Source of the DNA: a virus
Reading direction: 5' to 3' (one strand)
Length of the DNA stretch: 47,672 nt
IMG/VR virus record: IMGVR_UViG_3300035698_016237
Location: 1-47,672 of that record
Shown here: one piece after another, positions 16,785 through 38,229 of the stretch
Layout: every line of letters begins with the position of its first letter
Numbering within the stretch: the first letter of the stretch is position 1
Translations under genes and position numbers: made by a program
Notes under the pieces: generated by a model
The model's input: only the letters and a program-made list of their open reading frames with translations
Told to the model about the DNA's origin: nothing
Databases searched by the model: none

Positions 16785-17001
16785 AGATAAGCTCGTCCAC
16801 ACAAACTCCTTCACCGAAGAAGGCAGATACTTAATCGCCCTCACACAGGGCCAAATCATCACCCTCGAATCAATGTCCGAGGAAAGAGCAGACCAGGAGT
16901 ACGAACTCGAAAACCTCACCAGACAACTACTCGATATCGCAAGGACCGAACAACTGAAGAAAGAAGCCGAAGAACAACCCGAGTCAGATCCATTCGAGTA
17001 A
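16618..17001 (+). CDS. Coiled-coil protein overlapping the portal gene
   Basis: About 127 residues, acidic and helical (a helical segment beginning FLKETVKDLQ, then GWQALMERCQTRIQELKDKL). The layout resembles small phage proteins near the portal that carry a GW-x-x-L core and a coiled coil. The ATG at 16618 places 167 bases inside the portal C-terminal coding region in a different frame; a shorter start within the overlap is possible. It is the last gene before the 900-bp regulatory gap. Confidence 0.62.
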   Translation: MNLIKGRKETVFQNSDHLKQVTAEAEFLKETVKDLQMHSGWQALMERCQTRIQELKDKLVHTNSFTEEGRYLIALTQGQIITLESMSEERADQEYELENLTRQLLDIARTEQLKKEAEEQPESDPFE

Positions 17002-17010
17002 GCCCTCAAA

Positions 17011-17040
17011 CCCCGGTCATCAGTCAAATGGTGGCCGGGG
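17011..17040 (+). terminator. Hairpin after packaging genes
   Basis: CCCCGGTCA (17011-17019) pairs with TGGCCGGGG (17032-17040) with one U-G pair. It begins 9 bases after the stop of the last packaging gene. There is no following T-run, so termination would be weak or factor-dependent. Confidence 0.45.
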
Positions 17041-17375
17041 AGCCCTGACAGACCGCCAGACCATCAGACACTATATGTGCAAGCACTTTCCCCTATAAGG
17101 TGGAAATATGCCCTCACAGCGACAGCAGGAGAGTTTTATGAAATTTTTTTGTGCACTCCAATAGCGGTCGGATAATATATACGGGCGGGGTGGGGTCTGG
17201 CAGGGGTACCCCCCCTATTGCGTCTAATTACTGTACACATTGGCCTTGGCGTTGGCTCGATACTCCCGGCAGTACACGGTAAAACCCCAGCGAATACAAT
17301 ACTTTAAGCCATAAGTGCAGATAATATATAGTTATCTACACCCAGTACGCCCAAGAATGGGAGTGCTTTTAAGCC

Positions 17376-17499
17376 GAATGTGTCAAGTTTGATTTACAGT
17401 CGTTAAAGACGATCAAGTCCTTCTCTTCCACTTCCATCCGAGAAATGCTTTCGTTTGTTCGTTGTTCTTGCCTTGAATGTGTCAAGTTGTCTTTACAGT
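17376..17499 (-). repeat. 25-bp direct repeats containing TTGACA
   Basis: Copies at 17376-17400 and 17475-17499 are identical at 22 of 25 positions, in the same orientation, 99 bases apart. On the minus strand each reads ACTGTAAA-N3-AACTTGACACATTC, so each carries a perfect -35-like TTGACA. They could be regulator-binding sites or promoter copies. Confidence 0.6.
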
Positions 17500-17645
17500 T
17501 TTGAATGTCATCCTTGCCTTGCTCGGTGTCGGGTACTGCGTACCATAGGAGAAGAGCATAAGAAGAAGCTGTTGTCCTGCCTGCTTTACAGTTTGTGCCT
17601 TGTTGCATTCTTTGTGCTCTATCTCTTATATGTTCCACGAGCTTA

Positions 17646-17769
17646 TGACAAAAAGTGTCGCTTTGCCCTGTTTTGCCTGTTTTATGACAAAAAGTGTCAA
17701 TGCTAGAGATATCATGGGCTTGCACTGCTTTCGATTGGTTTCCCTTCTTTCGACTGACAATTATTGTCA
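17646..17769. promoter_or_regulatory. Three TGACA-N5-TGTCA operator-like palindromes
   Basis: Sites are 17646-17660 (last base G instead of A), 17685-17699 and 17755-17769, the last two perfect. The first two share the spacer AAAAG; the third has ATTAT. Spacing is 39 and 70 bases. A 15-bp dyad with the half-site TGACA repeated three times upstream of a gene cluster is the pattern of repressor operators. The cognate regulator is not identified; the HTH protein at 24593 is one candidate. Confidence 0.6.
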
Positions 17770-17793
17770 ACTTGGCTTTTCTGCTGATATTAA
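17764..17793 (+). promoter_or_regulatory. Candidate early promoter
   Basis: TTGTCA (17764-17769) and TATTAA (17788-17793) are 18 bases apart and point to the ArdC gene at 17905. The -35 hexamer is the right half of the third palindrome, so occupancy of that dyad would block transcription. Confidence 0.45.
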
Positions 17794-17904
17794 TCAAACT
17801 GCTGATATTATTAACGATTGTTTACTTTGTGTACTTTGGCACGTTCTTTGCTCATGTAATTAACCGTCTGTTGATAACTGAGAGCAATTGAAGGAGAGAA
17901 TAAA

Positions 17905-18756
17905 ATGTCAAGTGTCTATGAAATCGTAACCGATGAAATATGTAAGAAGCTTGAAGCAGGCGTTATCCCTTGGAACAAGCCGTGGAATGCGATTGAAGGA
18001 TTTAACGGACTGTCAAGAACGCCTTACAACGGCTTAAATGTCCTGCTTCTTGCAGGATTACCTTACAAGGTGCCCTGTTATCTGTCATTTAATCAAGTCA
18101 AACAGTTCAAGGGGCGCGTCAAGAAAGGTGAACACGGAAACATAGTCACCTTTTTCAAGCAATACGAAACGAAAGACAAAGAGACGGGCGAACCTGTCAA
18201 GATTCCTTTACTCCGATACTACCGAGTTTTTAACATTGACCAATGTACAGGCTTGAAACTTCCAGACAAAACGCAAGCCTATATAGATGAGCAGATTGAA
18301 ATTCACGACAACAAAGAATTAAAGTCTGCAAGCGATATCTGGGAAAGCTACCAAGCCAAGCCAGAATTAAAACACGGTGGCGAAGCTGCATATTATAGGG
18401 AAGAGATCGACGCTATTCAATTGCCGGATATGTCAAGATTCCTTGACAGTTCATCATATTACGCCACCCTTTTTCACGAGGCGACGCACAGCACAGGACA
18501 TGAAAACCGCTTGAATAGACGGACCCTGAAAACCTATCACGCGCGAATAAGCGAGCGTTCAAGAGAAGAACTTGTTGCCGATATTGGCAGTGCTTTCCTT
18601 TGTCGTGAAGCTGGGATTGATACCGAAGGGACTTTGACCAATACAGCTTCTTACTGTCAAGGTTGGAGTTCATACCTTAGAAGTGACCCCAAGGCAATCT
18701 CAACAGCAGCAAGCCAGGCAACCAAAGCAGCAAAACATATCCTTGGGACTGTCTAA
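17905..18756 (+). CDS. ArdC-like antirestriction protein
   Basis: A 283-residue protein with the ArdC layout: an N-terminal ssDNA-binding domain (residues 1-110, starting with a helix and containing IPWNKPW and the RxPYNGLN segment) and a C-terminal zincin metallopeptidase-like domain. The zinc motif HEATH is at about residues 191-195, followed by the STGHENRL context typical of the family. ArdC-type proteins protect incoming DNA from host restriction and occur on plasmids and phages. It is the first gene of the early operon, with AAGGAGAG upstream of the ATG, as expected for a protein needed right after entry. Confidence 0.85.
   Translation: MSSVYEIVTDEICKKLEAGVIPWNKPWNAIEGFNGLSRTPYNGLNVLLLAGLPYKVPCYLSFNQVKQFKGRVKKGEHGNIVTFFKQYETKDKETGEPVKIPLLRYYRVFNIDQCTGLKLPDKTQAYIDEQIEIHDNKELKSASDIWESYQAKPELKHGGEAAYYREEIDAIQLPDMSRFLDSSSYYATLFHEATHSTGHENRLNRRTLKTYHARISERSREELVADIGSAFLCREAGIDTEGTLTNTASYCQGWSSYLRSDPKAISTAASQATKAAKHILGTV
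18431..18448. repeat. Inverted repeat TGTCAAG-N4-CTTGACA, copy 1
   Basis: Perfect 7-bp arms, 18431-18437 and 18442-18448, inside the ArdC coding sequence. The same arms with the same 4-base spacing occur at 19164-19181. Confidence 0.55.
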
Positions 18757-18769
18757 CCATTGCTAATCA

Positions 18770-18793
18770 ACTTCCAAGGATAGCCTTGGGAGT
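18770..18793 (+). promoter_or_regulatory. Intercistronic hairpin, copy A
   Basis: ACTTCCAAGG (18770-18779) and CCTTGGGAGT (18784-18793) form a 10-bp stem with one U-G pair and a 4-base loop. It matches the hairpin at 21592-21617 in sequence except for a compensatory pair change next to the loop. It lies between the ArdC and clamp genes. Confidence 0.6.
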
Positions 18794-18808
18794 GCAAAAG
18801 GTTGAAAA

Positions 18809-19822
18809 ATGCTAGTTAATCAAAAGTTATTGAGTAAAGCCCTTGCCATGCTTGCAAGTTGCGACAAGGTAACACTGGAAGGTGCGGGCGGCTTGACAAT
18901 GCTAATCCGTGCTAAGTTTGCAGGGCTCGACACAACAAGTCACGAAACAAGGATAACTTTACCGGCGCACAACTACCTTGACCGCGTTTCTGTCGATTAT
19001 AGAGACTTTAAAAAGCTCATAAAATCTCAGGATTGTGAAGCTGAATTATCCATATTGGATGAAAAACTAACGATTTCTCAAGGCGAATACTCTCAATCTA
19101 TTCCTTGCAAGCCTGATTATTCAGAGTTTGACCATGCCGGATATCCTGAACAGGCCGACGGATTGTCAAGTTTGCTTGACACATTGGGCAAGTATGCAGG
19201 TAAAGACGATGCAAGGGATTTTCTAAACGGTGTTTTGTTTGCGGAAAAACTGGTTTCAACTAATGGGCCCAGGCTGGTATATACTGATAATCCTGCTAAA
19301 TTGCCCGTTGAATGCATCATTCCGCGCTCTGCCTGCGTCGCTATAGCCAAGGCCAAAAGTGCCCCTGTACAATACGGTTACAGGCCGGATATGGTCTCGT
19401 TTCGCTGGCGGAATGGTTGTTATCTTGTCGAAATATCGGCTTATCCCATTGAAGGTGAATATCCAAACTGGACAATGATTGTCCCTAGTTCCAAGCCCAT
19501 CGGAGTTATCGAATACCCCGTTGAATTACTCAGGACATTTATAAAAGCATCAAAGCCGTTCTTCCGGCAAAAGGCCGCATTGAGATTGTCCGGCAACGGT
19601 CGTTTGACTGCTGAAGTCACTCACGGCGATATTGGTTCGGGCTCATGCGATTTTGGAAGCTGGCATAAATTCGATTTTTCCATTGGATTGAATGTAAATT
19701 TCTTATCTGCATTATTGCCAAAAGAAGGTGTCGTCAAATTCGATTATCACGACGACTACAGCCCTGTTGTGTACCGCGACGGGCAATTTAATCATGTAGT
19801 CATGCCCATAAAAGTTAACTAA
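18809..19822 (+). CDS. DnaN-like sliding clamp paralogue 1 (divergent)
   Basis: A 337-residue protein with the three-domain length of a bacterial beta clamp. The central block FLNGVLFAEKL followed by VSTNGPRL (residues 149-156) corresponds to the DnaN signature VATDGHRL, with the His replaced. IEGEYPNWTMIVP (214-226) corresponds to the DnaN GxFPDYxRVIP motif, and the C-terminus HVVMPIKVN to the DnaN VVMPMRL tail. It aligns along its length with the clamp at 22815, which keeps more canonical motifs. A clamp tethers polymerase and repair enzymes to DNA. The degenerate motifs suggest a specialised or regulatory clamp. Confidence 0.8.
   Translation: MLVNQKLLSKALAMLASCDKVTLEGAGGLTMLIRAKFAGLDTTSHETRITLPAHNYLDRVSVDYRDFKKLIKSQDCEAELSILDEKLTISQGEYSQSIPCKPDYSEFDHAGYPEQADGLSSLLDTLGKYAGKDDARDFLNGVLFAEKLVSTNGPRLVYTDNPAKLPVECIIPRSACVAIAKAKSAPVQYGYRPDMVSFRWRNGCYLVEISAYPIEGEYPNWTMIVPSSKPIGVIEYPVELLRTFIKASKPFFRQKAALRLSGNGRLTAEVTHGDIGSGSCDFGSWHKFDFSIGLNVNFLSALLPKEGVVKFDYHDDYSPVVYRDGQFNHVVMPIKVN
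19164..19181. repeat. Inverted repeat TGTCAAG-N4-CTTGACA, copy 2
   Basis: Perfect arms at 19164-19170 and 19175-19181, inside the first clamp gene. It shares arms and spacing with copy 1. Confidence 0.55.
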
Positions 19823-19837
19823 AAGAAAGAAGAAACC

Positions 19838-21580
19838 ATGTATGCAACTTATTCGCCAGAAGATGACAAATTGAGACTTTACCCAAACGAGCGTTTGGAT
19901 GAAGAAACTTACAAAACTGTGAAAGATGCAGGCTTTAGGTGGGCACCTAAGCAAGAATTGTTTTACGGTGTTTGGAGCCCTACAAAAGAAACCCTGCTTC
20001 TGTCCTTATGTGGGGGGAGCATTGAGGATGATGATAAAAGCCTAGCAGAACGCGCCGAAACCAGATCGGGACGCTTTGAAGAGTACAGCGACAAGCGTAA
20101 AAACGAAGCAGAATCAGTAAAAGAAGCAGTCAAAGCCCTAGCCGATGGAATACCACTCGGGCAACCTATCCTAATCGGCCACCACAGCCAGAAACGCGCA
20201 GAAAAAAACGCCCAGAAGATTACAAACGGAATGAGACGAGCCGTCAATTTGTGGGAAACTTCCCAATATTGGCAAGATCGGGCTCAATCCGCAATCGGTC
20301 ACGCTGATTATCTGCAAAGGCCGGACGTTCGCGCCCGTCGTATAAAGAAGCTCGGCGCGGGAATGCGGAAATGGGAAAGAAGCTTGAAAGAAAAAAAAAC
20401 CTATATCGAGTTGTGGAATAGTGTTGAGTTAACACTGAATGGAGCCCTGGAAATTGCAAACCATGATAGCTGTTCGGCATGTTTCCCCCTTGACAAGTTC
20501 CCTCGCAAGGACGGCGCGTCAACTTATGAAGGTAGCATGTCCTTCTGGAGTGCTTTAAAAGATGAAATAATCACACCCGAACAAGCGCGGGATTGGTCTC
20601 TCGCGTTGAAGCAAAATGCAATCCCTTATCATCAAAAATGGATTGAACACTATCAAAACCGCATCGCCTATGAAACCGCCATGCTTGGTGAATCTGGCGG
20701 AACTATCGCAGACAAAACCAAACCCGAAAAGGGTGGAGCTTGTAAGTGCTGGGTATCTAAAAGGTTCGGTGGATGGTCTTATATACATAGAGTCAACAAG
20801 ATATCGGTTTCAGTTCTCACGACTTTTGACCATGAGAAGTTCTTTTCACGAACGGTGGCCTTTGATAAACTCAAAGGCGTGATGACCAAGCAGGAAGTCC
20901 AGGACGCCCGAGACGCCTTCAAAATAATCAATGATGACAAAATGGGTTTCCAACTTTCAGAAATCCCAGTCAAACCAGCACCCAAACCAGCCGAAACAAC
21001 AGAAACCGATTTCGACAAGCTTAAAGAATCTCTTAAAGCTGGCGTCAAAACCGTTTCTGTCCCTCAACTCTTTGTAACTCCCAAGGATATAGCTTACAGA
21101 ATGGTTGATTTAATCAATGTTCTGGCAGGTCAAAGAGTGCTTGAACCGAGCGCGGGAACTGGTGCCCTGATTGACGCTGTATTGTCAAGATTTACAGGTT
21201 ACGATTGTGGGAGCCTTGTAGCTGTTGAAGTAAATCAGGCACTTGCTAAACAGCTTGAAGAGCGCAGGAACAAGACGCTTTACGCAAACGAAAACAACTA
21301 CAAGATTGTGTGTGCTGATTTCCTGCAAACCGAAGATCTCGGCAAGTTTGACCGCATTGTTATGAATCCACCTTTCATATCAGGTGATGATGTCAGGCAT
21401 ATTCGCCACGCTCAGGGCATGTTAAAGCCCAACGGGAAATTGGTTTCCCTTTGTGCAGCTGGTCCGAGACAGCAAAGAGCTTTCGAGAAGGACGCTATAT
21501 ATTATGAGGTTTTACCTACCGGGAGCTTTAAGCAGCAGGGCACTAATGTTAATGTGGCCTTGGTGGTTTTAGGAGCTTAG
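19838..21580 (+). CDS. DUF3560 / N6-adenine methyltransferase fusion
   Basis: A 580-residue protein. The N-terminal 200 residues are a DUF3560 domain, recognisable from YSPEDDKLRLYP, DAGFRWAPKQELF, PLGQPILIGHHS and PDVRARRIKKL. The C-terminal domain is a class I SAM methyltransferase with motif I EPSAGTGAL (about residues 436-444) and the amino-methyltransferase motif NPPF (510-513), which points to N6-adenine or related base methylation. Only a short linker separates them. Encoded with ArdC and the clamps early in infection, it probably modifies phage DNA against restriction. DUF3560-methyltransferase pairs are known on phages and plasmids; the exact target is unknown. Confidence 0.82.
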   Translation: MYATYSPEDDKLRLYPNERLDEETYKTVKDAGFRWAPKQELFYGVWSPTKETLLLSLCGGSIEDDDKSLAERAETRSGRFEEYSDKRKNEAESVKEAVKALADGIPLGQPILIGHHSQKRAEKNAQKITNGMRRAVNLWETSQYWQDRAQSAIGHADYLQRPDVRARRIKKLGAGMRKWERSLKEKKTYIELWNSVELTLNGALEIANHDSCSACFPLDKFPRKDGASTYEGSMSFWSALKDEIITPEQARDWSLALKQNAIPYHQKWIEHYQNRIAYETAMLGESGGTIADKTKPEKGGACKCWVSKRFGGWSYIHRVNKISVSVLTTFDHEKFFSRTVAFDKLKGVMTKQEVQDARDAFKIINDDKMGFQLSEIPVKPAPKPAETTETDFDKLKESLKAGVKTVSVPQLFVTPKDIAYRMVDLINVLAGQRVLEPSAGTGALIDAVLSRFTGYDCGSLVAVEVNQALAKQLEERRNKTLYANENNYKIVCADFLQTEDLGKFDRIVMNPPFISGDDVRHIRHAQGMLKPNGKLVSLCAAGPRQQRAFEKDAIYYEVLPTGSFKQQGTNVNVALVVLGA

Positions 21581-21591
21581 CCCTTGCCTAT

Positions 21592-21617
21592 CACTTCCAA
21601 GCGAGGGCTTGGGAGTG
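21592..21617 (+). promoter_or_regulatory. Intercistronic hairpin, copy B
   Basis: CACTTCCAAGC (21592-21602) and GCTTGGGAGTG (21607-21617) form an 11-bp stem with one U-G pair and the loop GAGG. Relative to copy A the closing pair changed from G-C to C-G on both arms, which is covariation supporting a selected RNA structure. Confidence 0.62.
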
Positions 21618-21657
21618 TCGGGAATGGTTAAATAATAGAACAAGAAAGGTAAAGAAA

Positions 21658-21876
21658 ATGCTTGACTTGACAAATAAAAAAGCAGTTGCCATTCATAGGG
21701 AATGGTTGAAAACACAATACAAATTGGTAGTTTGCCGCAATGATAAAGACTACACAACCTATCTATTAGGCAATGACAAAGAGCGGGCAAAATCAGAAGG
21801 CGATAGGCTTACCGAAAAAGCCATTGAGTTTTACGGTGGCGCGGTCAAGTGTCAATTCAATGAACCAACAGCATAA
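21658..21876 (+). CDS. Hypothetical small protein
   Basis: A 72-residue basic protein with an AAAGGTAAAG-type ribosome binding site. The N-terminal part (IHREWLKTQYKL) is helical. It is unrecognised. It belongs to a run of four small genes between the methyltransferase and the second clamp. Confidence 0.6.
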   Translation: MLDLTNKKAVAIHREWLKTQYKLVVCRNDKDYTTYLLGNDKERAKSEGDRLTEKAIEFYGGAVKCQFNEPTA

Positions 21877-21908
21877 ACAGTGAAAAGAATAGAAGAAAGA
21901 AACCTAAG

Positions 21909-22094
21909 ATGACTACAAAACGAATAGTAAGGGAATTCTTAAAGGAATATCCAGATCTTATGGACAAGGAGCGCTTAATAGATGTTCACTACGGTACAAG
22001 AGAAGGTGTTAGCCATTATCTGTACGTAGGAAAAAGAAAGTTTGAACGTCGCTATACTCCTGGATACAGGAATCATTGGTTCGTAGAAGCTTAA
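21909..22094 (+). CDS. Hypothetical small protein
   Basis: A 61-residue basic protein (KRIVREFLKEYP at the start, RYTPGYRNHWFVEA at the end), starting after an AGAAAGAAACC leader. No family is recognised. Confidence 0.5.
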   Translation: MTTKRIVREFLKEYPDLMDKERLIDVHYGTREGVSHYLYVGKRKFERRYTPGYRNHWFVEA

Positions 22095-22113
22095 AAATAG
22101 GGAAGGTAGATAG

Positions 22114-22431
22114 ATGAAAAAGAAACCAATTGAAATTGCAATCTGCGGTATTAAAAAAGCAGGGCAACAAGATGTCAATGCTTTTATATTCGGTTCATTC
22201 GGTGTGCATATGGAGAGAAGGGAACACTGGCGAGTAACCCATATTCCAACGGGAATATCAATGTCTAAAGGTTATTGTCTGGGGAAGTCTAAGGCCATTG
22301 CATATGCAAAGGAGCTTTCAAGTATCCCCGATTCAGATGTGGGCAAGTTCGCAGACTTTGACTCAGTTCCGACAATCCTCTTTGATGCAATGAAGGTTAT
22401 TTACTATAAGCATATGAGCAATCCTGTCTAA
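22114..22431 (+). CDS. Hypothetical protein
   Basis: A 105-residue protein preceded by AAGGTAG. It has a mixed alpha/beta composition and contains THIPTGISMSKG, resembling small phage proteins that describe a contextual signal in unknown early genes. No function is assigned. Confidence 0.55.
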   Translation: MKKKPIEIAICGIKKAGQQDVNAFIFGSFGVHMERREHWRVTHIPTGISMSKGYCLGKSKAIAYAKELSSIPDSDVGKFADFDSVPTILFDAMKVIYYKHMSNPV

Positions 22432-22448
22432 ACTGAAAGGTGAAGAAG

Positions 22449-22793
22449 ATGAAAGCCAAGGAGATAATCAGCCTGCTATCAGAAGAAGGTGTTATCCAAT
22501 ACAAAGAAACCAGACGCATAATCAGAAAGTTTCGTAAAGAGGAGTCAAAGGAATTGCTTGAAATGATGGACAAGCTCATCAGTCAATTGTTCAGTGATAG
22601 CAATTGTGGGAGTCCCTGGTCTTCCACTCTATATGTAATCTGGCAGTCTTGCGGCAAGTGGTTTGTTGATATCGGTGGAGAATCACCTTCAACTGGCTTT
22701 CGTTGCGGCGAGGTACCTTTCGAATGCCTTATGGACTGTTGTGTCTATGCGGCTAACGAAGCTCATGCCCGTTTTCGTTGTGGAATAATTTAA
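22449..22793 (+). CDS. Hypothetical protein
   Basis: About 114 residues from the ATG at 22449 (MKAKEI), preceded by AAAGGTGAAG; a GTG 9 bases earlier is also in frame. The N-terminal half is helical and basic, the C-terminal half Cys- and Gly-rich. It ends 21 bases before the second clamp gene. It is unrecognised. Confidence 0.58.
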   Translation: MKAKEIISLLSEEGVIQYKETRRIIRKFRKEESKELLEMMDKLISQLFSDSNCGSPWSSTLYVIWQSCGKWFVDIGGESPSTGFRCGEVPFECLMDCCVYAANEAHARFRCGII

Positions 22794-22814
22794 CAAACAG
22801 AAAGAAGAGAGATT

Positions 22815-23846
22815 ATGAAGATTGACGCCCAAGTATTTAAAAAAGTGCTGGTTTCCCTGAATGGTTGTTCGAGCATCAGCACATGCAGCGACCCGTCCGT
22901 GGTGCTTTCGTGCAATGGCGAAGACGGCTTACACGTATCCGCAGAATTCGGATGTATGGATTATATAATCAGGCATTCGATTTCTGGCTATGGCGAACAG
23001 TTTGACCAATGCGAAATCAACTATAAACGCCTGAAAGCCGTGGTTTCTGGGATTGAAGGACAAGTTGACTTGGACTTCCGGGACAATAAACTCATCCTGA
23101 AATCCGAATTCAACCACGAAATCAAAGCCTGTAAGCCTGAAAATGTCCGCGAGTTCAAGTTTGAAATGAAAGATACTCCCGTCGAATTCGATTCTCTGCC
23201 AGATATCATGCGAACGCTCGTAAAGTTTGCCGCGAAGGACGACCCGCATGTACTTCTGAACGGAATCTATTTTGAGAACGACGGTAAAAGAATCGTTGCC
23301 ACCGATGGACACAGGATGTCTATCACGGAATGCCCAATAAAGACACCAAACGCAATTGTGCCAAGGGTAGCCTGCGCTGCCCTGTCCAAAGTCAAAAGTC
23401 CCGTACAGTGCAAGTTTGGAACTGGTAGGGCATATTTCCGATATGGTGACGTTGAGGCAATTGCTCGGTATATCCCTGGCGAATACCCTGATTACAATAG
23501 GGTAATTCCCAAGGATTCGGGAGTCAAGGTGGCGATTGACGGTGGCAAGCTCCAAAGGTTTATCAAGTCATCAAAGGCATACCTCGGGCGCGACGGTGGC
23601 ATCAAACTGTACAGCGAAGGGGCGGCGATGAAAGCAAAGGCATCTTGTCCTGACCTGGGTGACGCTGAACGCGATTTGGGCGACTCCAACGGGATTGAGA
23701 TTGATATCGGACTGCAAGCAAGCTACCTCAACGAGTACCTCGAAAAGGATACCGAGCTTGAATTCAGTTACTACGGCGAGCTTTCACCTATCACGATTGA
23801 AAAGGATGGTTTCCTGCATGTCCTAATGCCTGTAAGAATTAGCTAA
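22815..23846 (+). CDS. DnaN-like sliding clamp paralogue 2
   Basis: A 343-residue protein with the hallmarks of a bacterial DNA polymerase III beta clamp: LLNGIYFENDGKRI followed by VATDGHRM (residues 161-168), PGEYPDYNRVIP (221-232) and the C-terminal VLMPVRIS. The three repeated clamp domains fit the length. It aligns with the clamp at 18809 through the whole protein (for example TLVKFAAKDD against TLGKYAGKDD). It would ring the DNA and bind host or phage replication proteins through clamp-binding peptides. No phage DNA polymerase is present in the window, so the partner is probably the host replicase. Confidence 0.85.
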   Translation: MKIDAQVFKKVLVSLNGCSSISTCSDPSVVLSCNGEDGLHVSAEFGCMDYIIRHSISGYGEQFDQCEINYKRLKAVVSGIEGQVDLDFRDNKLILKSEFNHEIKACKPENVREFKFEMKDTPVEFDSLPDIMRTLVKFAAKDDPHVLLNGIYFENDGKRIVATDGHRMSITECPIKTPNAIVPRVACAALSKVKSPVQCKFGTGRAYFRYGDVEAIARYIPGEYPDYNRVIPKDSGVKVAIDGGKLQRFIKSSKAYLGRDGGIKLYSEGAAMKAKASCPDLGDAERDLGDSNGIEIDIGLQASYLNEYLEKDTELEFSYYGELSPITIEKDGFLHVLMPVRIS

Positions 23847-23855
23847 ACTACGGTT

Positions 23856-23879
23856 AGGTGGTTGTACGGTCGGCCACCT
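23856..23879 (+). promoter_or_regulatory. Hairpin after second clamp gene
   Basis: AGGTGG (23856-23861) pairs with CCACCT (23874-23879) across a 12-base loop. It is shorter than the other intercistronic hairpins but in the same kind of position. Confidence 0.4.
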
Positions 23880-23903
23880 TCCCTTTACTGGAAAGATTAG
23901 AAA

Positions 23904-24335
23904 ATGAATAAAGCAACCTACACAGACCAGCTTGTAGAATTCTTCAACACGATACAACCAGAAGTCGAGAGCGAAGCAGATATAAAATTTGATGTTCATC
24001 CTGTTAGGATCTTCATCAAACCGGAGTACAAGGCAGGATCAGAGGCATACGAGAGCGCAAAAGTGAATCTCGCAAGCATGCTGGATGCATATCCAAACCA
24101 AAAAGAATTGAAGGGTGGCCCGAGCTACATTCATGCAGGCGCTACACTCGGAGATCAAGGGACAGCAATTAGATTCTTCCTACTCGCAGAATATTTCGGA
24201 TTGGGGAACATAATGACAGGTGCAAGGATGACAACAGCATCTAATGTTGATTCTGAATACAGTGAAACTGTAAAGAATGAAAATTCGTTGTCGTTCAGGA
24301 GTGGCCTGTTTTACCTGATGTCGAAAGGAGATTGA
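23904..24335 (+). CDS. Hypothetical protein
   Basis: A 143-residue acidic protein with mixed secondary structure (PVRIFIKPEYKAGSEAY around residue 33). It is unrecognised. It is followed after 1 base by the GTG-started gene at 24337, and its own 3' end supplies that gene's AAAGGAG. Confidence 0.6.
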   Translation: MNKATYTDQLVEFFNTIQPEVESEADIKFDVHPVRIFIKPEYKAGSEAYESAKVNLASMLDAYPNQKELKGGPSYIHAGATLGDQGTAIRFFLLAEYFGLGNIMTGARMTTASNVDSEYSETVKNENSLSFRSGLFYLMSKGD

Positions 24336-24336
24336 G

Positions 24337-24579
24337 GTGAGCGAAAACATTAAATACAAAACTATTGACGATCTGGTAGAAGCATATTTATCAAACTCAG
24401 TTCCAGAAAACGCCACATTAGAAATAGATAACGACTACGTTTCGCTGAGTCTATATGAAGAATTCGACGACGAAGGCCACGTGATACCAGTGTTGTTTCG
24501 GTGGGATGGTGGACCGTCGAGCTTGTTTCTAGTAGAGTTTATAAGAAAAATGACAGACATACAGATAGATTTTGTATAG
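24337..24579 (+). CDS. Hypothetical acidic protein
   Basis: An 80-residue acidic protein. The GTG at 24337 is the start because AAAGGAG lies 6-8 bases upstream. No family is recognised. Confidence 0.55.
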   Translation: MSENIKYKTIDDLVEAYLSNSVPENATLEIDNDYVSLSLYEEFDDEGHVIPVLFRWDGGPSSLFLVEFIRKMTDIQIDFV

Positions 24580-24592
24580 AAAGCGCAGGGCA

Positions 24593-24838
24593 ATGATTGA
24601 ATCAAAAGCATATGTAAAGGCCAAGCATCTCAAAGAGCGCCTGGGGCAGGATCGGACGTGGGCGCAGTTTGCCGAAGTCCTGGGAGTAGCAGACTCCACC
24701 ATCAGGGCTTGGAAACGTGGTCAGGAGGCCGCGCCGACCGTGATTAAATTCCTGAACACTCTTCTATGGATCACAAATAAAACCGAGCTTGAAGAGTATA
24801 CCGACGACCTTCTTGAGATCCTTGAAAGGGATTTTTAG
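24593..24838 (+). CDS. Small HTH DNA-binding protein (XRE-like)
   Basis: About 81 residues from the ATG at 24593; a TTG at 24572 is in frame but overlaps the previous stop without a ribosome binding site. A helix-turn-helix is visible in WAQFAEVLGVADSTIRAWKRG (residues about 21-41), with an acidic C-terminal helix. It ends 2 bases before the left arm-type repeats of attP. It could be a repressor for the TGACA-N5-TGTCA sites or a recombination-directing factor. The choice between these is not decidable from sequence. Confidence 0.65.
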   Translation: MIESKAYVKAKHLKERLGQDRTWAQFAEVLGVADSTIRAWKRGQEAAPTVIKFLNTLLWITNKTELEEYTDDLLEILERDF

Positions 24839-24877: not shown

Positions 24878-24905
24878 AAGGGCTTAGGAAATCTCCTAAG
24901 CCCTT
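24878..24905 (-). terminator. Terminator carried with the tRNA 3' end
   Basis: AAGGGCTTAGGA (24878-24889) and TCCTAAGCCCTT (24894-24905) form a perfect 12-bp stem with a 4-base loop. On the minus strand it lies just past the tRNA CCA end and is followed by TTTGTTTAT, fitting the host tRNA gene's terminator retained in attP. Confidence 0.75.
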
Positions 24906-25750: not shown

Positions 25751-26545
25751 TCAGAGTTTAAATCTTTGCAACACCATTCTTGCAAATTGTGAAACTTTTT
25801 TATCTGGGTGCTCAGTCATTTCCTGTGCAAGAGCTTGCAATTCACTCCCGAATGTGGCGTTGACCTGGGTTTGTAGATACTCGCTCGACATGTGGCCGTA
25901 AGTGTCAACGGTAGTGCCGATCTCCCTATGTCTCAAGATAGCCTGGGCAACCTGTATCCCTGAATTCATCATCAAATGAGATCCGCAGATATGGCGCAGA
26001 TCGTGAAACCGGAGCTTGGGAAGATAAGCTTTTCGGCAAGCTGTGTTCAACCGTTCTCCGATATCGTTCCTGTATGTCTCATAGAGCATTTGCTCAGGAT
26101 CGCTTTTTAATACTGGCTCAATGTACTTCCAGGCAACCTGGGGAATCGGTATGTACGCCACTTCCCCGGTTTTGGTCGATTTTATCTCGTCTCTTGGGTT
26201 ATCGGGCGAAAAATGCCTGTCCCTACTGCCTTCGACAAGCACCGTTCGGGCCGTACAGTCGAAGTGTCGCATCCGTAAAGCCATGATTTCGGATTTTCTC
26301 AAGCCGCAGAACGCAGCTAAGGCCAAAGCGGGTCGTGCAGATTGGGATGCGCAATTAATCATCCTATCGAGGTCGGGGATTGATACGACAGGCACGGCCC
26401 GCTTGACCCTATGCTTTTTATAGAACTCTGGAACCCGGTTTATCAAGCCCTCTTTGTGCGCCGCCGACAAGAGTATCTTGGTTATCCTTGCAGCGTGTTC
26501 CTGCTTGGCCGGAGTGTCAGTCGTAGCTATCATGCCTTTCAGCAT
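25751..26545 (-). CDS. int: Tyrosine integrase, N-terminally truncated
   Basis: A 264-residue protein carrying an intact catalytic domain: Arg in GLRKSE (R83), Lys in the KSTKTGE hairpin, HDLRH (181-185), His in LRHREIG (206) and the nucleophile Tyr in VDTYGH (216). Only the last 50 residues of the core-binding domain precede it; the arm-binding domain is missing. Upstream at 26579 a strong AAGGAGGG and ATG begin a 20-codon frame (MNIYNRLEG) typical of integrase N-termini, but out of frame with the rest. This suggests an internal deletion with frameshift. The in-frame upstream stop lies at that ATGA. It may be inactive or a deletion form. Confidence 0.7.
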   Translation of the reverse strand: MLKGMIATTDTPAKQEHAARITKILLSAAHKEGLINRVPEFYKKHRVKRAVPVVSIPDLDRMINCASQSARPALALAAFCGLRKSEIMALRMRHFDCTARTVLVEGSRDRHFSPDNPRDEIKSTKTGEVAYIPIPQVAWKYIEPVLKSDPEQMLYETYRNDIGERLNTACRKAYLPKLRFHDLRHICGSHLMMNSGIQVAQAILRHREIGTTVDTYGHMSSEYLQTQVNATFGSELQALAQEMTEHPDKKVSQFARMVLQRFKL

Positions 26546-28189: not shown

Positions 28190-29161
28190 ATGTACAAACC
28201 AGATATGCCAGCCAAGGAGTACCACGCTAACGAGGCAACCAGCAGGAGCGCCCTGAGCCTGTTCGCTGAAAGCCCTTTGCAGTACAAGCACAAGATACTT
28301 GACGGGAATAGTAACGGTGTGAAGCAAGCTTTTCACGAGGGCACTTACCTGCATACCGGCCTAATGGAGCCTGACAAGCTCCCAAAACAGTTAATGACAA
28401 CAAGCACACTGTACAACTCGCAGACCTGGAGAGATACCGCACGGGACAACCCTGACAGTGTGGTGATACCCGAGAAAGAAGTTGACAAGCTGAATTCAAT
28501 TCTTCAATTTGCCGCATCTGACAAGCACGTTATCGAGATTCTGAAGGCTGGCAAGGTAGAAGAATCATTCTTCACTGAAGATCCAGTAACTAAGCTCCCA
28601 TTGAAATGCAGACCGGATATGTGGTTTGAAGGTGCGCCTTGGGATGTTGGCTTGCATTACAATTTTGGCAGTACGAACCCAGACTTCAACCTGACTGGCT
28701 ACGACAAACGATTCACGCCCCGGATAACAGTTGTCGATTGGAAGTTTATAGGGGCAGGCAGGGGAGCAAACCCTAGTCATATGCCTTCTGGTTTTGCATG
28801 GACTGTCAGAGACTATAAGTATCACTGGCAGGCCATGTGGTATCGCTGGGTTATGTCCTTGGAATTCAAGTGTGACCCGGAAGAGATCGCCTTTGTGTTC
28901 TGCATCATCTCAAAAGACGAACCTCTTCACCTTTGGTTTACAGAGCTACCTCCAATTGCGAACGACATAGCGGCACGAGAAATACGTGACAACCTGGACA
29001 AGCTGGGAATGTGCAAAAAGGCCGATGACTACCCAGCTACAGGCAAAGGAATCAACGATATGGCTACTTACATGCACTGGCTGAACTTCTTCAACTCGTC
29101 AGATGGTGACGACATAGCCAATTGTGCAACAGAAGGGATGGTCCTCAATGGAAGACTTTGA
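28190..29161 (+). CDS. PD-(D/E)XK exonuclease (RecE/DUF3799-like)
   Basis: A 323-residue protein with the layout of phage exonucleases that chew 5' ends for recombination. The N-terminus (ATSRSALSLFAESPLQYKH) is the usual helix-rich opening, EGTYLHTGLMEP follows, CRPDMWF supplies the metal-binding Asp, and VVDWKF the D-x-K of the PD-(D/E)XK core. KYHWQAMWY matches the QxxxY motif. It is followed with a 14-base overlap by the Gp3-like gene, so the pair may act together. Confidence 0.82.
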   Translation: MYKPDMPAKEYHANEATSRSALSLFAESPLQYKHKILDGNSNGVKQAFHEGTYLHTGLMEPDKLPKQLMTTSTLYNSQTWRDTARDNPDSVVIPEKEVDKLNSILQFAASDKHVIEILKAGKVEESFFTEDPVTKLPLKCRPDMWFEGAPWDVGLHYNFGSTNPDFNLTGYDKRFTPRITVVDWKFIGAGRGANPSHMPSGFAWTVRDYKYHWQAMWYRWVMSLEFKCDPEEIAFVFCIISKDEPLHLWFTELPPIANDIAAREIRDNLDKLGMCKKADDYPATGKGINDMATYMHWLNFFNSSDGDDIANCATEGMVLNGRL

Positions 29162-30083
29162 GCCTCGTGTTGAAGGCGTGAGTGATGTTGTGCGCCTGAT
29201 AGAAGCAGGAAAAATCAGGCTGGGATACAAGGCCAAAAGCAAAAATGGCAAAGAATACCCGAAAGCAGCCGATCACTTTGTGGTAAAGCACCTCCCAGAG
29301 GTCGTAGCTGTGTATGGTGAAACCCCGAAGAGCCTCGACATCTGCCTGCCATTGAACGACCTAACCAAGATTTACCCGCAAGAGCTTAGGGCATACGGCG
29401 GCAATAAGGCTCTCAAATGCCACGGGAACGGTGTAGTTGCACAGCGATACAACGATACAACCGAATCCTGGGAGCGCAGGGAAGTTTGCAGAGACGGCGG
29501 TTGCGACTGGTATACGAGCAAGAAGTGTTCCTTCGTTTCCCAGCTGTGGGTTGTGCTTCCCAAGGTTGACATGTTCAAGGCGTATCGAATCATCAGTGGA
29601 TCTTTCAACACCACCGTCAACCTGAATACCTTCTTCAAACAACTGGCAGAGACATTCAACGGGAAGATTCGCGGCATACCGATAACCCTGAAGTTGGTTG
29701 AAATAACCAACAATCCGGTAGTAAGCGGCAAGCGTATCGCCTCTCAGAACTACGTTATCGTACCGGAAGCGGGGTTCAAGGCTGACTACGAGTCTGTTTC
29801 TAACATCCTGAGCGGTGATTCTGGCTTTGTTCTTCCAGCAAGCAACCTCGCTCTTCCAGCCATAGATCCCTCAAAAGAGGTTTTAACAGACGACTCTGAC
29901 CCAACACTACCCGTACCTACCGACAGCGCACCCAACAAGGAAGAACTGGAAGACTTGTTCAAGAGGGCAAGCATGGCGATGAAGATCACCGTCAATGAGG
30001 CAAGAGAAAACTACATCGTAGGCCATGAAGGGGATATCGACTCATTTAAGGCGTCTATAGAGAAGAAAGAGGCAGGGAAATGA
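29148..30083 (+). CDS. Gp3-like zinc protein (recombination directionality/annealing family)
   Basis: About 311 residues from the ATG at 29148 (MEDFEP), preceded by AGAAGGG; it overlaps the exonuclease end. KIRLGYKAKS, TPKSLDICLP and GSFNTTVNLNTFF with IRGIPITLKLVE match the conserved blocks of the Gp3-like recombination directionality factor family, also annotated as metal-binding phage proteins. Cysteines in CHGNG, CRDGGCDW and KKCSF could bind zinc. The C-terminal 80 residues are acidic and probably flexible. In many phages this family replaces RecT beside a RecE-like nuclease. Whether it acts in integration control or strand exchange is not decidable here. Confidence 0.7.
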   Translation: MEDFEPRVEGVSDVVRLIEAGKIRLGYKAKSKNGKEYPKAADHFVVKHLPEVVAVYGETPKSLDICLPLNDLTKIYPQELRAYGGNKALKCHGNGVVAQRYNDTTESWERREVCRDGGCDWYTSKKCSFVSQLWVVLPKVDMFKAYRIISGSFNTTVNLNTFFKQLAETFNGKIRGIPITLKLVEITNNPVVSGKRIASQNYVIVPEAGFKADYESVSNILSGDSGFVLPASNLALPAIDPSKEVLTDDSDPTLPVPTDSAPNKEELEDLFKRASMAMKITVNEARENYIVGHEGDIDSFKASIEKKEAGK

Positions 30084-31613: not shown

Positions 31614-31653
31614 TTACAAGCAATCAATGAGAGAAATGAGAGGATTGAGATGA
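31606..31653 (+). CDS. Possible 15-residue leader peptide before the ATPase
   Basis: ATG at 31606 follows AAGGGAG by 6 bases and reads MADYKQSMREMRGLR, ending in a TGA that overlaps the ATPase ATG at 31650. Such a coupled mini-cistron could set ATPase expression. It is too short to judge by composition, so support is limited to the ribosome binding site and overlap. Confidence 0.35.
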   Translation: MADYKQSMREMRGLR

Positions 31654-33086
31654 CTGACCACCTGAAAAGAATCACAATTGAAAACCTATTGAAGATCAAG
31701 AGCGTAGATATCGACCTGTCGGCTGATATGGTCTTGATTACCGGGGCGAACGAACAGGGGAAGTCTGCCGTCCTGAAAGTAATCGAAATGATACTGAAGG
31801 GCAAAAAGGTATGGGATGAAATGCCCATCCACAACGGCGCTCGTCAAGGCAAGGCCACCCTTGAGACCGACAAATACACCGTTGAGATGGTGATTGACCA
31901 GAAAAAGTCGTCGATCAAGGTCTTGGGCGCTGATAGAATACCCGTCTCGTCGCCTGCGAAGCTGTTGAATACGTGGCTGTCTGACAATGCAGTCGATCCT
32001 ATGCGCTTCAAGGCGTTGGGCGATACAAAGGCAGGACGGCGCGAACAGGCCGAAGTCCTCAAGAGGATCGCCGGTATCGACTTCAGCGAGCTGGATGAAG
32101 AGCGTGACAAGCTCTTCAAAGCGAGGACTGAGTTCAACTCCAACCACAAGCTTCTCAAGACTCAGGCCGGAGCATATAACGCACCACCAGGGACGCCCGA
32201 TGAGTTCATTGACGTAGCGGCACTCTTAGAGCAACTCAGCAAGGCAGAAGAGAACAACCGTAAGCGCGAGACTGCCAAAAACGAGGCCGTAGGAATCTAC
32301 GAGAGCATCGAGAAAAGCCTACGTGTAGTAGAAGAGAACGATTCTAAGCGCAAAGCCGCTTCTGAAGAATTCGATTCAATCAAATATGTCAACACCGATG
32401 AGCTTTACCAAAAAATTAAAGAAGCTGAAGAGGCCAACAGCAGAAAGCGCGAGTTGGAAGTAGATATAGAAAGGCTGGAAATTTACGGTGAAGAGACGGC
32501 GGGAAATCTCACACGGGCAAGAACAAGGCGCGATATCCTGGTTGGCGAGCATGAAGATGGTGAAACCATCGACACCATCCCTCTTCAAGCACAGATTGAA
32601 TCTGCCGCAACCGTCAACGAGAACGTATCCAAAAAGGCAAAGAAGAAAGAACTCGAAGAGCAGGCAGAAAAAGCCGATAGCGCCTCGGAAGGCTGCTCAT
32701 GGGAAATAGAGAAGATCGACAATGAAAAGTTCCGTCTGCTGAATGGGGCAGACTTACCTATAGATGGCCTGAGTATTGAGGGGGATACCGTTTACTACAA
32801 CGGTTTGCCCTTAAAACAGGCCAGTGGAACTGAAGAATTGCGAGTCTCGACGGCTATCGCAATCGCGGAAATCATTAAGGGTGACAACGACGCACCCAGA
32901 TTTGTGCTCATCCAGGATGCCACGTCAATCGACACTGCAAATATGCAGGCGATTCAAGAAATGTGTTCTTCATACAGCATCCAGATCATTTGCACAAAGA
33001 TGGATGAATCAGGGGTACTCGGGATAGTGATTGAGGATGGTGAAGTCAAAGCCGTCAACGCACAAACGGACCTCTTTACCAAATAA
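31650..33086 (+). CDS. SMC/RecF-like AAA ATPase
   Basis: A 478-residue protein with Walker A GANEQGKSA (residues about 32-40) in the RecF/SbcC style, a coiled-coil middle (residues 165-350, long E/K/R/A runs) and a C-terminal ATPase lobe with the Walker B-like FVLIQDATSID (about 420-430) and a DxxN-type D-loop. It opens LKRITIENLLKIKSVDID, the usual start of this family. In phages it accompanies the exonuclease/Gp3 pair and RusA and is thought to act in DNA end processing or repair. The specific partner is unknown. Confidence 0.8.
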   Translation: MTDHLKRITIENLLKIKSVDIDLSADMVLITGANEQGKSAVLKVIEMILKGKKVWDEMPIHNGARQGKATLETDKYTVEMVIDQKKSSIKVLGADRIPVSSPAKLLNTWLSDNAVDPMRFKALGDTKAGRREQAEVLKRIAGIDFSELDEERDKLFKARTEFNSNHKLLKTQAGAYNAPPGTPDEFIDVAALLEQLSKAEENNRKRETAKNEAVGIYESIEKSLRVVEENDSKRKAASEEFDSIKYVNTDELYQKIKEAEEANSRKRELEVDIERLEIYGEETAGNLTRARTRRDILVGEHEDGETIDTIPLQAQIESAATVNENVSKKAKKKELEEQAEKADSASEGCSWEIEKIDNEKFRLLNGADLPIDGLSIEGDTVYYNGLPLKQASGTEELRVSTAIAIAEIIKGDNDAPRFVLIQDATSIDTANMQAIQEMCSSYSIQIICTKMDESGVLGIVIEDGEVKAVNAQTDLFTK

Positions 33087-33440: not shown

Positions 33441-33619
33441 CCGCTAAAGAACTCATAAAATACAGGGAAGAAGTCTGCCCATCCTGCTCTCACTACAGCG
33501 ATGAACCAAAATGCCTTGAGTGGGAGTATTTACCTGGGGAGATGATCCCAGGCCCAAACAACACCACCGTTCCATACGAGGGAATGATGCATAAAGGGCA
33601 TTGCAGGAGCTTCAAATAA
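33437..33619 (+). CDS. Small Cys-rich (zinc-binding) protein
   Basis: A 60-residue protein with CPSCSHY, PKCLEW and HCRSF giving four cysteines plus histidines in a zinc-finger-like spacing. Coupled by ATGA to the previous gene and by TAATG to the initiator gene that follows. The link to replication is by position only. Confidence 0.6.
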   Translation: MTAKELIKYREEVCPSCSHYSDEPKCLEWEYLPGEMIPGPNNTTVPYEGMMHKGHCRSFK

Positions 33620-34488
33620 TGACCGACGTTCTCACAGAGCTTACAGAACGCTTCCAGCAGGAGGAATTCGGGTATAAAACGTACATAGCTGCGGTGTACC
33701 TACTTGGCAGGCTATCTGATAAACCCCAAAGGTTTGATTACGAATATGTGTATCTCAAATTTGGGAAGCTTGTGAGCATTTCGACTATCGAAAAGACGAT
33801 AGGTCTGCTTATGAATTTAGGTATGGTCGATGGGGTAAAGATCAGTGGAAAATACAGGTACAAGCTTTCGGAAAAGTTCCGTAATTACTCCGTAATTGCT
33901 CCACATTTAGTCCGTAATTGCTCCACAATTGCTCCACAATTAACCCGTAATTGTTCCGTAATAGACAAAAACAGAAACGTGATTTCTTCAATAAAAGTGC
34001 TACCTTGCGATACGTTGGTTTCCGTAATATCTCCATCATACGTCCGTAAATATAGCATCGCTAAGTTACAAGTAACAAGTAAACAAGTAAAGAAAACAAG
34101 TAAAGAAAAAAAATCTTTACCTGAAGAACGTGTCAAAAGCATTCAGGAAGTGTTCGATTATCTGAACAAATTGTCAGGCGCATCCTACCAAGCATTCCGT
34201 AAAGACAAGATCACCCAGGATGGTAAATTTCTGAATTCATATCTGACCAAGCTCGTTAAAGGAAAAATACCTGTACGCAACTGGCGACTCACCGAGCAGG
34301 ACGCCGTGAGCTTGGTCAAGAAGACAATCGAAATCAGGTCAGAGAAAATCGATATGATTTACCTGCGACCGTCTACTTTGTGGAAATGGCAAAAGTCGGA
34401 GGGGTTTGTACAGGACTCTCTCAAGTTTGGCTGGAAGCCTGCCAGTGCGGTCGAGGATAAGCCAAAGAAAGATTTATTTGCAAAATGA
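33619..34488 (+). CDS. Replication initiator (lambda O-like role)
   Basis: About 289 residues from the ATG at 33619, with AGGAG 9 bases upstream. The N-terminal 80 residues form a winged-helix-type region (SISTIEKTIGLLMNLGMVDG), typical of phage replication initiators. The middle (residues 87-115) is encoded by the 11-bp iteron array and shows an 11-residue repeat (RNYSVIAPHLV, then RNCSTIAPQLT). The C-terminal region VFDYLNKLSGASYQAF is the conserved phage replication C-terminal domain. It is followed by DnaB with a 4-base overlap, so it probably binds the iterons and loads the helicase. Confidence 0.78.
   Translation: MTDVLTELTERFQQEEFGYKTYIAAVYLLGRLSDKPQRFDYEYVYLKFGKLVSISTIEKTIGLLMNLGMVDGVKISGKYRYKLSEKFRNYSVIAPHLVRNCSTIAPQLTRNCSVIDKNRNVISSIKVLPCDTLVSVISPSYVRKYSIAKLQVTSKQVKKTSKEKKSLPEERVKSIQEVFDYLNKLSGASYQAFRKDKITQDGKFLNSYLTKLVKGKIPVRNWRLTEQDAVSLVKKTIEIRSEKIDMIYLRPSTLWKWQKSEGFVQDSLKFGWKPASAVEDKPKKDLFAK
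33879..33966 (+). repeat. Eight 11-bp iterons: candidate replication origin
   Basis: Eight directly repeated 11-bp units start at 33879, 33890, 33901, 33912, 33923, 33934, 33945 and 33956, consensus CCRYAATTGCT (units 3 and 8 are divergent). The period equals about one helical turn, so bound initiators would line up on one face. They lie within the initiator gene, as in lambda O. Two further partial copies (TCCGTAATATC, GTCCGTAAATA) occur at about 34021-34052. Confidence 0.8.
34060..34122 (+). other. AT-rich unwinding element candidate
   Basis: About 80 percent A+T with the repeated AACAAGTAAA motif (34073-34102 region) and an A-run, immediately downstream of the iterons. A duplex-unwinding element is expected beside iterons in origins of this type. 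Confidence 0.5.
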
Positions 34489-35807
34489 ACCACGCAATCG
34501 TTGACAGAGTTCCCCCGTTTTCCAACGAAGCTGAACAGTCCGTACTCGGGGTTATCCTGCTGAACAATAACGCCATAGACAACATCCCTGACCTCAAGGC
34601 GACGCATTTCTACTACGAAAGCCATGCTTACATTTTCGAGGCAATGACCAAACTGAGCTTTGAGAACAAGCCTGTCGATCTGGTTTTGATGCAGGACGAA
34701 TTGAAAAATCAGGATCGACTTCAGGCGATAGGTGGCCTTGCTTATCTCGGAGAACTCGCTGGGTTACTTCCAACTTCGACTGGAATCAAACACTACGCCA
34801 AGATCGTCATGGAGAAGCATCAGGCCAGAAAGCTCATAAAAGCCTGCCAGGATACAATTTCAGGAATATACGGCCATCAGGACGACCTCGAAGGTGTTTT
34901 ACGTCAAGCCGAAGGCGACCTTGGCGATGCCTTGAACAACGAGACCACGAGTAATCTTGTCGATGTAGCCAGCACAATCGACTTGAATATCCAGAGATTA
35001 CAGGACATTGAACGTGGAATAATTACTCCTGGCATACCTTCCGGATTCAATAAGCTTGACGAGGTGACGCAGGGCTTTCGCGAAAGTGAGTTGATTGTAA
35101 TTTCCGCACGTCCCAGCAAGGGAAAGACCGCTTTTGTAGTAAACATCGCCGTCAATTGCGCCTTGCGCGGGTTGGGGGTCTTCTTCGCCTCGCTTGAAAT
35201 GTCAGAGAGGGAAATCAAATACAGAATGATCTACTCGCTGGCGAAAGTAAACTCGTACCGAGCCAACAAGGGATTCCTGCGCGACGATGAGTGGCAAAGA
35301 ATCATTGAAGCGACCGAGAAACTGCGGAATTGCAAGATTATCATCTCAGACAAGGCGCAGCAAACCCCCAACGAGATCCTGGCAGGCGCGAGACGAGCAA
35401 AACGCATGATGGGACGACTCGATATATGCCTCATGGATTATATTCAGATTGGAGGGCACTCAGAGCCTAAATCCGCTTCCAAGGAAAATAAGATATCGAG
35501 CATCTCAAGTGGCATGAAAAAGATGGCGAAAGATATGCGTGTCCCGGTAGTCGCTTTGTCTCAACTCAACCGAGATATCGAGAAGAGAAATGACAAGCGG
35601 CCCAAGCTTGCAGATCTGCGCGACTCGGGAGCAATCGAGCAGGATGCCGACATCGTTATCTTCATCCATCGGGAAGATAAAGTTGATGAATATGGATTTT
35701 CCGAGACTGAACTAATCGTAGCAAAAAACAGAAATGGCGGGTGCGACAGCAGGTTTGTTAATTACTTGCCGTCATACACGTTATTTCAAAACATTGGAGA
35801 AGAGTGA
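34485..35807 (+). CDS. dnaB: DnaB-like replicative helicase
   Basis: A 440-residue protein with the DnaB layout: N-terminal domain (PPFSNEAEQSVLGVILLNN and after, 1-110), linker, and RecA-type ATPase domain with Walker A ARPSKGKT (208-215), Walker B ICLMDYIQIG (about 313-322), and the LSQLNRDIEKRNDKRP and RDSGAIEQDADIVIF motifs of the family. It unwinds DNA at the fork. It overlaps the initiator stop by 4 bases and is followed by the gene at 35807 with a TGATG overlap. No phage primase or polymerase is present, so host enzymes presumably complete the replisome. Confidence 0.9.
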   Translation: MNHAIVDRVPPFSNEAEQSVLGVILLNNNAIDNIPDLKATHFYYESHAYIFEAMTKLSFENKPVDLVLMQDELKNQDRLQAIGGLAYLGELAGLLPTSTGIKHYAKIVMEKHQARKLIKACQDTISGIYGHQDDLEGVLRQAEGDLGDALNNETTSNLVDVASTIDLNIQRLQDIERGIITPGIPSGFNKLDEVTQGFRESELIVISARPSKGKTAFVVNIAVNCALRGLGVFFASLEMSEREIKYRMIYSLAKVNSYRANKGFLRDDEWQRIIEATEKLRNCKIIISDKAQQTPNEILAGARRAKRMMGRLDICLMDYIQIGGHSEPKSASKENKISSISSGMKKMAKDMRVPVVALSQLNRDIEKRNDKRPKLADLRDSGAIEQDADIVIFIHREDKVDEYGFSETELIVAKNRNGGCDSRFVNYLPSYTLFQNIGEE

Positions 35808-37857: not shown

Positions 37858-38229
37858 ATGAGCGTAAATGAGAGCGACAAATCAATTCTAGTACGCTGTC
37901 GCGGATGCTCGAAATATCTCTTCAGAGATCTTCGATATGTTATAAATAGAATTATTGAAGGGGAGCATCCTGATTGCTTCAGAAACCAGTACCTTGCTGA
38001 ACAGCCAGCCAAGGTCGAGCTTGCCGATCATAGCTGTGATGTAGGAAACCATGTTCTTGACAATCTTGAGGCTGACTGCATAACGCATTCGGGGGTGGTG
38101 GACGATGAGAATCGTCACGTAGGAAAGCGCATAGGACAAAGGGAGCTTGACATGCCTACGGATGATGAAGTATTCAACGAAGAAGAGGCAATAGACCCAT
38201 CAAAGGAGACCCGCGATGACAATCAATGA
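37858..38229 (+). CDS. Hypothetical protein, possible zinc-binding N-terminus
   Basis: A 123-residue protein with CRGCSKYLF (residues 14-22) and further cysteines (DCFRN, SCDVG, DCITH) near the N-terminus, and a very acidic C-terminus. It overlaps the integrase start by 14 bases. It is unrecognised. Confidence 0.55.
   Translation: MSVNESDKSILVRCRGCSKYLFRDLRYVINRIIEGEHPDCFRNQYLAEQPAKVELADHSCDVGNHVLDNLEADCITHSGVVDDENRHVGKRIGQRELDMPTDDEVFNEEEAIDPSKETRDDNQ

Follow-up and report, generated by a model that had tools for sequence, protein, structure and literature searches.

The window, i.e., the whole 47,672-bp stretch of DNA that was analysed, comprises an entire IMG/VR record and encodes two divergent sliding clamps of the DnaN type, together with a set of replication and recombination genes. 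The main features are:

17905–24838, plus strand: ArdC, clamp A, DUF3560/methyltransferase, four small ORFs, clamp B, two small ORFs and an HTH protein
18809–19822, plus strand: clamp A, divergent DnaN-type beta clamp of 337 aa, exact intact ORF
22815–23846, plus strand: clamp B, divergent DnaN-type beta clamp of 343 aa, exact intact ORF
24878–24905, plus strand: strong hairpin at the operon end (-21.9 kcal/mol, z -6.5)
28190–29161, plus strand: RecE-like exonuclease (DUF3799/PDDEXK), identified by Pfam/PHROG
31650–33086, plus strand: RecF/SbcC/Rad50-like ATPase (PHROG 1499), identified by profile matches, with C-terminal NAQTDLFTK
33601–34488, plus strand: putative replication initiator, weak match to PHROG 428, ending in KPKKDLFAK
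33878–33965, plus strand: eight 11-bp iterons inside the initiator gene
34485–35807, plus strand: DnaB replicative helicase, identified by profile matches

The genes of 17905–24838, separated by gaps of -8 to 77 nt, probably form a single operon, within which both clamps would be co-transcribed. The hairpin located downstream is a probable terminator, possibly a bidirectional one. A 1.1-kb non-coding stretch with repeated GAATGTGTCAAGTT...TTTACAGT elements lies upstream of the clamp operon (16785–17904).

The contig carries an exact 75-bp direct repeat at its termini. When the ends are joined, the frame of a long minus-strand gene located at the right end continues through the junction to a start on the left end. 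The continuity of the frame is itself weak evidence, because an 87-bp (29-codon) tandem repeat encloses the terminal repeat; more weight attaches to the gene start recovered beyond the join. The genome, originally described as near-complete, is therefore probably complete, with a circular form of about 47.6 kb. At its start, this very large end-spanning gene contains the 87-bp tandem repeat (1–155 and 47511–47672), which encodes a peptide repeat of 29 residues.

Six-frame searches of the window, for which control genomes were positive, gave no match to Pol A (PF00476), Pol B (PF00136), Pol III alpha (PF07733) or the DnaG zinc ribbon (PF01807), so that the phage polymerase and primase of a T4-type replisome were not encountered. 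The possibility of a polymerase or primase hidden among the unassigned ORFs was rejected, since Pfam and PHROG scans of every large gene and the six-frame searches revealed none. Thus, the combination on which the original prediction was built, two divergent clamps in a phage lacking its own polymerase and primase, was borne out by searches with working controls. The iterons inside the initiator gene are a probable replication origin of the lambda O-like type; no homologue of the initiator itself was found in phage records. The genome also contains a weak RusA-like match, two tyrosine recombinase genes (25751–26545, minus strand, and 38216–39085, plus strand) and a Gp3-like recombination directionality factor (29124–30083). 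Neither Rfam features nor tRNA genes were found in the window.

The predicted whole-length relationship of the two clamps was recovered by BLASTP as an end-to-end alignment with 28% identity (141 bits, E 8e-44). Both proteins have significant full-length matches to PHROG 947, DNA polymerase processivity factor (3.4e-27 for A and 5.3e-36 for B), as expected from the initial assignment. The Pfam central and C-terminal clamp domains were matched in B only, and general family models scored A lower than B; with TIGR00663, the NCBIfam DnaN equivalog, A and B reached 32.9 and 88.8 bits, respectively, both under the curated cut-off of 137.65. AlphaFold2 models, obtained with an alignment of 60 clamps as input, had pLDDT 92.7 and pTM 0.89 for A and pLDDT 91.1 and pTM 0.88 for B, residues 11–50 of B being the weakest region of the two. 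In Foldseek searches each model aligned from end to end with E. coli beta (E about 1e-22, TM about 0.8). Judging from these models, A and B can confidently be predicted to be full-length three-domain beta clamps, as had been anticipated for both copies. The GC content of A (44.3%) and B (47.9%), compared to that of the window (47.4%), is uninformative as to a recent foreign origin.

Conservation was assessed in 71 columns whose residue class is shared by 90% or more of 157 clamps; domain I is the least certain part of the A/B residue alignment. The loss of the central-motif histidine in A, noted at the outset, is real: DGHR is replaced by NGPR, with the DGH aspartate changed to N152 and the histidine (H175 of E. 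coli) to P154. A retains the equivalents of D150 and R152 (D134 and R136) and has no equivalent of R24. B retains DGHR, and carries H145 at the position of R152 and Q301 at that of N320. The loss of R152, a residue required for viability in the E. coli clamp (PMC5042465), is confined to B. Overall, A and B each depart from the conserved class in 21 columns, 14 of which are common to both and 7 private to each. The equal numbers argue against a degraded A next to a normal B: A has indeed lost canonical residues, as the original prediction stated, but overall it is not more degraded than its partner. The symmetry of the divergence fits two specialised copies.

In both clamps, the residues forming the partner cleft (equivalents of E. 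coli L155, T172, G174, L177, P242, V247, V360, M362 and P363) are either retained or conservatively substituted. R24, K198, Y153 and Y154, which help loading or contact DNA, are altered in A and B alike, so that a host loader may not use the clamps efficiently. A has lost most of the acidic residues at its domain III interface; comparison of the interface charges of A and B did not discriminate between a heterodimer and homodimers.

Two maximum-likelihood trees group A and B as sisters (100/99 support), which places the duplication within the lineage of this phage. Consistently, their mutual score is 131 bits, while any other clamp found scores at most 45 bits against A and 86 bits against B. 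The two share many lineage-specific residues. Their wider placement is unsure because the stem leading to them is long. Relatives of the phage were not found among viral contigs, either in single-sequence scans with A, B, the terminase and DnaB or in a pattern scan with A/B; matches of the latter scan in genome contigs resemble chromosomal DnaN and were set aside.

In tblastn searches, no annotated phage record had a second clamp (31, 2 and 52 records, one place in each). Among 48 clamp-bearing IMG/VR records, two viral records of more than 100 kb, IMGVR_UViG_3300028379_000400 (G004) and 2627854282_000001 (G006), have two clamps each. These clamps fall in different clades and were not counted as duplicated pairs; the records possibly represent two prophages, captured host sequence or a composite.

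A different situation was found in IMGVR_UViG_3300020219_000016 and IMGVR_UViG_3300042914_003100, each of which encodes one clamp of normal size and, as an open frame of 675–745 aa, a longer product that includes a clamp region. The short and long clamps form one clade (100/100) divided by type rather than by phage, and the duplication is therefore older than the split of the two phages. Both copies were retained while diverging to about 42% identity. As a separate clade, this pair represents a duplication independent of that in the window, according to the tree. Its members are about 13–33 kb apart and differ greatly in architecture. No polymerase was detected in the two records; the PHROG 1499 ATPase is present in both, and DnaB in the 48-kb phage. 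Enlarged clamps, in phages that also encode a normal one, are located at L270 (12237–14474, minus strand) and L272 (2725–4752, minus strand); their N-terminal extension belongs to no known family, and the clamp region itself contains an insertion. As both clamps of the window look intact and the clamp gene was also doubled independently in another, unrelated group of viruses, clamp doubling is probably useful. The co-occurrence expected in related phages was thus seen as a pair kept in a different lineage, and not in close relatives of the window phage, none of which were present in the collections searched.

Potential partners of the clamps were sought among the phage proteins by the presence of Gln, two residues and Leu-Phe close to a terminus. 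The C-terminus of the ATPase, NAQTDLFTK, contains QTDLF at residues 472–476 of 478 and conforms to this Q-x-x-L-F type of clamp-binding motif; by shuffling, the total expected over the 12 C-terminal residues of every protein is 0.05 such motifs. None of about 85 aligned ATPase homologues, which usually end shortly beyond a conserved IEDG-x-V, has a strict Q-x-x-LF tail, and 50 homologue records searched whole contained a strong clamp in only two cases and a weak partial match in two more. The ATPase may be a phage client of the clamps, recruited via its QTDLF tail. The tail of the initiator, KPKKDLFAK, is clamp-binding-like, with KKDLF lacking the usual Gln.

DLF within the last eight residues occurs in 2 of 51 genes of the window compared to 6 of 3,804 genes of other viral loci (P about 0.003, post hoc). 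All six DLF-tailed genes found elsewhere belong to clamp-bearing loci; clamp-less loci, represented by 1,735 genes, contain no such tail (Fisher P 0.014, post hoc). Both tests were devised after the tails had been seen and the compared loci differ in taxonomy and host range, so that they are supportive only.

Tails of this kind were also observed near other phage clamps. DNA methyltransferases encoded at L110 (14538–18059), L119 (16292–17125) and L139 (16666–17409) have the clamp-binding-like tails GDLF, PDLF, QPSLF and QADLF, as if these enzymes were tethered to the clamp. In L113 (10636–11127) and L155 (10633–11121) the gene immediately 3' of the phage clamp codes for a protein ending in AQKDLF; the two products are similar and have no Pfam match.

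These features could be accommodated by a replisome largely borrowed from the host, in which A and B are both working clamps, supplied by one probable operon as a two-part set with divided labour and most likely assembled as an A/B heterodimer; this reading as a whole has, in our estimate, an even chance of being correct. The initiator would open the iteron origin and the phage DnaB would unwind the DNA, while the polymerase, primase and clamp loader would be provided by the host. The host loader may place the phage clamps on primers, where they would tether host Pol III and thus replace the host clamp around the borrowed replicase. Following the duplication, the clefts could have been divided between the host replicase and loader and the phage clients, such as the QTDLF-tailed ATPase. 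Of the possible assemblies, an A/B heterodimer would be the most likely, with two separate homodimers nearly as likely. The putative heterodimer is compatible with the data and somewhat favoured; such a ring is feasible, because engineered heterodimeric E. coli clamps are loaded and function with a single cleft (PMC3022782). A clamp-directed initiator also has a precedent in TrfA, which binds the host clamp via such a motif (PMC4980987). The stricter version, an obligate heterodimeric beta clamp of a polymerase-less phage that presents one face to the host replicase and another to phage clients and evolved at least twice, is tentative and somewhat less probable than not.

A and B may instead form two homodimers with different jobs, for example one in replication and the other as a platform for recombination or repair, or in late transcription, for which T4 gp45 provides a precedent (PMC2988020). 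The paralogues are only 28% identical, one of them adjoins the ArdC and DNA methyltransferase genes, the genome contains recombination genes and the clamp-tailed ATPase, and in the other lineage the paralogues are far apart and of very different architecture. However, the location of A and B in one probable operon and their shared lineage-specific residues suggest common partners, and the near absence of acidic interface residues from domain III of A could weaken an A homodimer. We regard this arrangement as a real contender of roughly one-in-three standing. Another proposal is that one copy is not a processivity clamp but a decoy or takeover factor sequestering the host loader, the replicase or a clamp-targeting defence. 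The retention in both copies of the cleft for host partners, the ArdC-type antirestriction gene in the operon and the existence of host toxins that hit the clamp, SocB (PMC9690074) and RipA (PMC12795458), are in line with it. Nevertheless, no clearly degraded copy can be singled out, the fold with its three domains is complete in A as well as B, and the clamp-binding tails of the phage proteins would be left unexplained. The 21 versus 21 symmetry argues against a normal clamp accompanied by a degraded decoy, and the decoy option raised in the original prediction is weakened to an improbable one. Least probable is a recent redundant duplicate drifting without a separate role: intact frames and folds at 28% identity require long selection, and the second lineage kept its own pair throughout its divergence.

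If the two-part clamp set with a borrowed replisome is correct, a polymerase-less phage would steer the host replicase by swapping the clamp and equipping its own proteins with clamp-binding tails. If heterodimeric, the pair would represent a natural system for studying separate roles of the two clefts of the bacterial ring.

Phage clamps without a polymerase are already known; a published phage with a duplicated clamp pair was not found in the open-access literature. Bacterial clamps are described as homodimers. The heteromers described from nature are archaeal PCNA and eukaryotic 9-1-1; for bacterial clamps, heterodimers have been described as engineered forms only (PMC9690074, PMC3022782). 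Like bacterial DnaN (TIGR00663; E. coli DnaN), A and B have the three-domain fold, the partner cleft and the C-terminal MP-[IV]-[KR]-[VI], but they are far under the equivalog cut-off, shorter, altered in several DNA-contact residues and present in two copies. The single clamps of Rhizobium phages RR1-A and 16-3 and Thermus phage Lalka27b belong to the same family, PHROG 947, but occur once per record and are about 17–32% identical to A or B. In Lalka27b the clamp adjoins genes for an O-like initiator, DnaB and primase, a layout of the replication module similar to that of the window phage. RK2 TrfA resembles the phage initiator as an iteron initiator with a clamp-binding motif (PMC4980987); its motif, however, is internal and canonical and RK2 is described with the host clamp, whereas that of the phage initiator is C-terminal and without Gln. 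Specialised duplicated clamp subunits, as proposed for A and B, are found in Sulfolobus PCNA1/2/3 and eukaryotic 9-1-1 (PMC9690074), which are trimeric PCNA-type rings with a demonstrated heteromer, while that of A and B is putative. A further parallel, the pair of 3300020219_000016 and 3300042914_003100, differs in its independent duplication, one enlarged copy and wide spacing, but shares with the window two paralogous clamps, the lack of a detectable polymerase and the PHROG 1499 ATPase.
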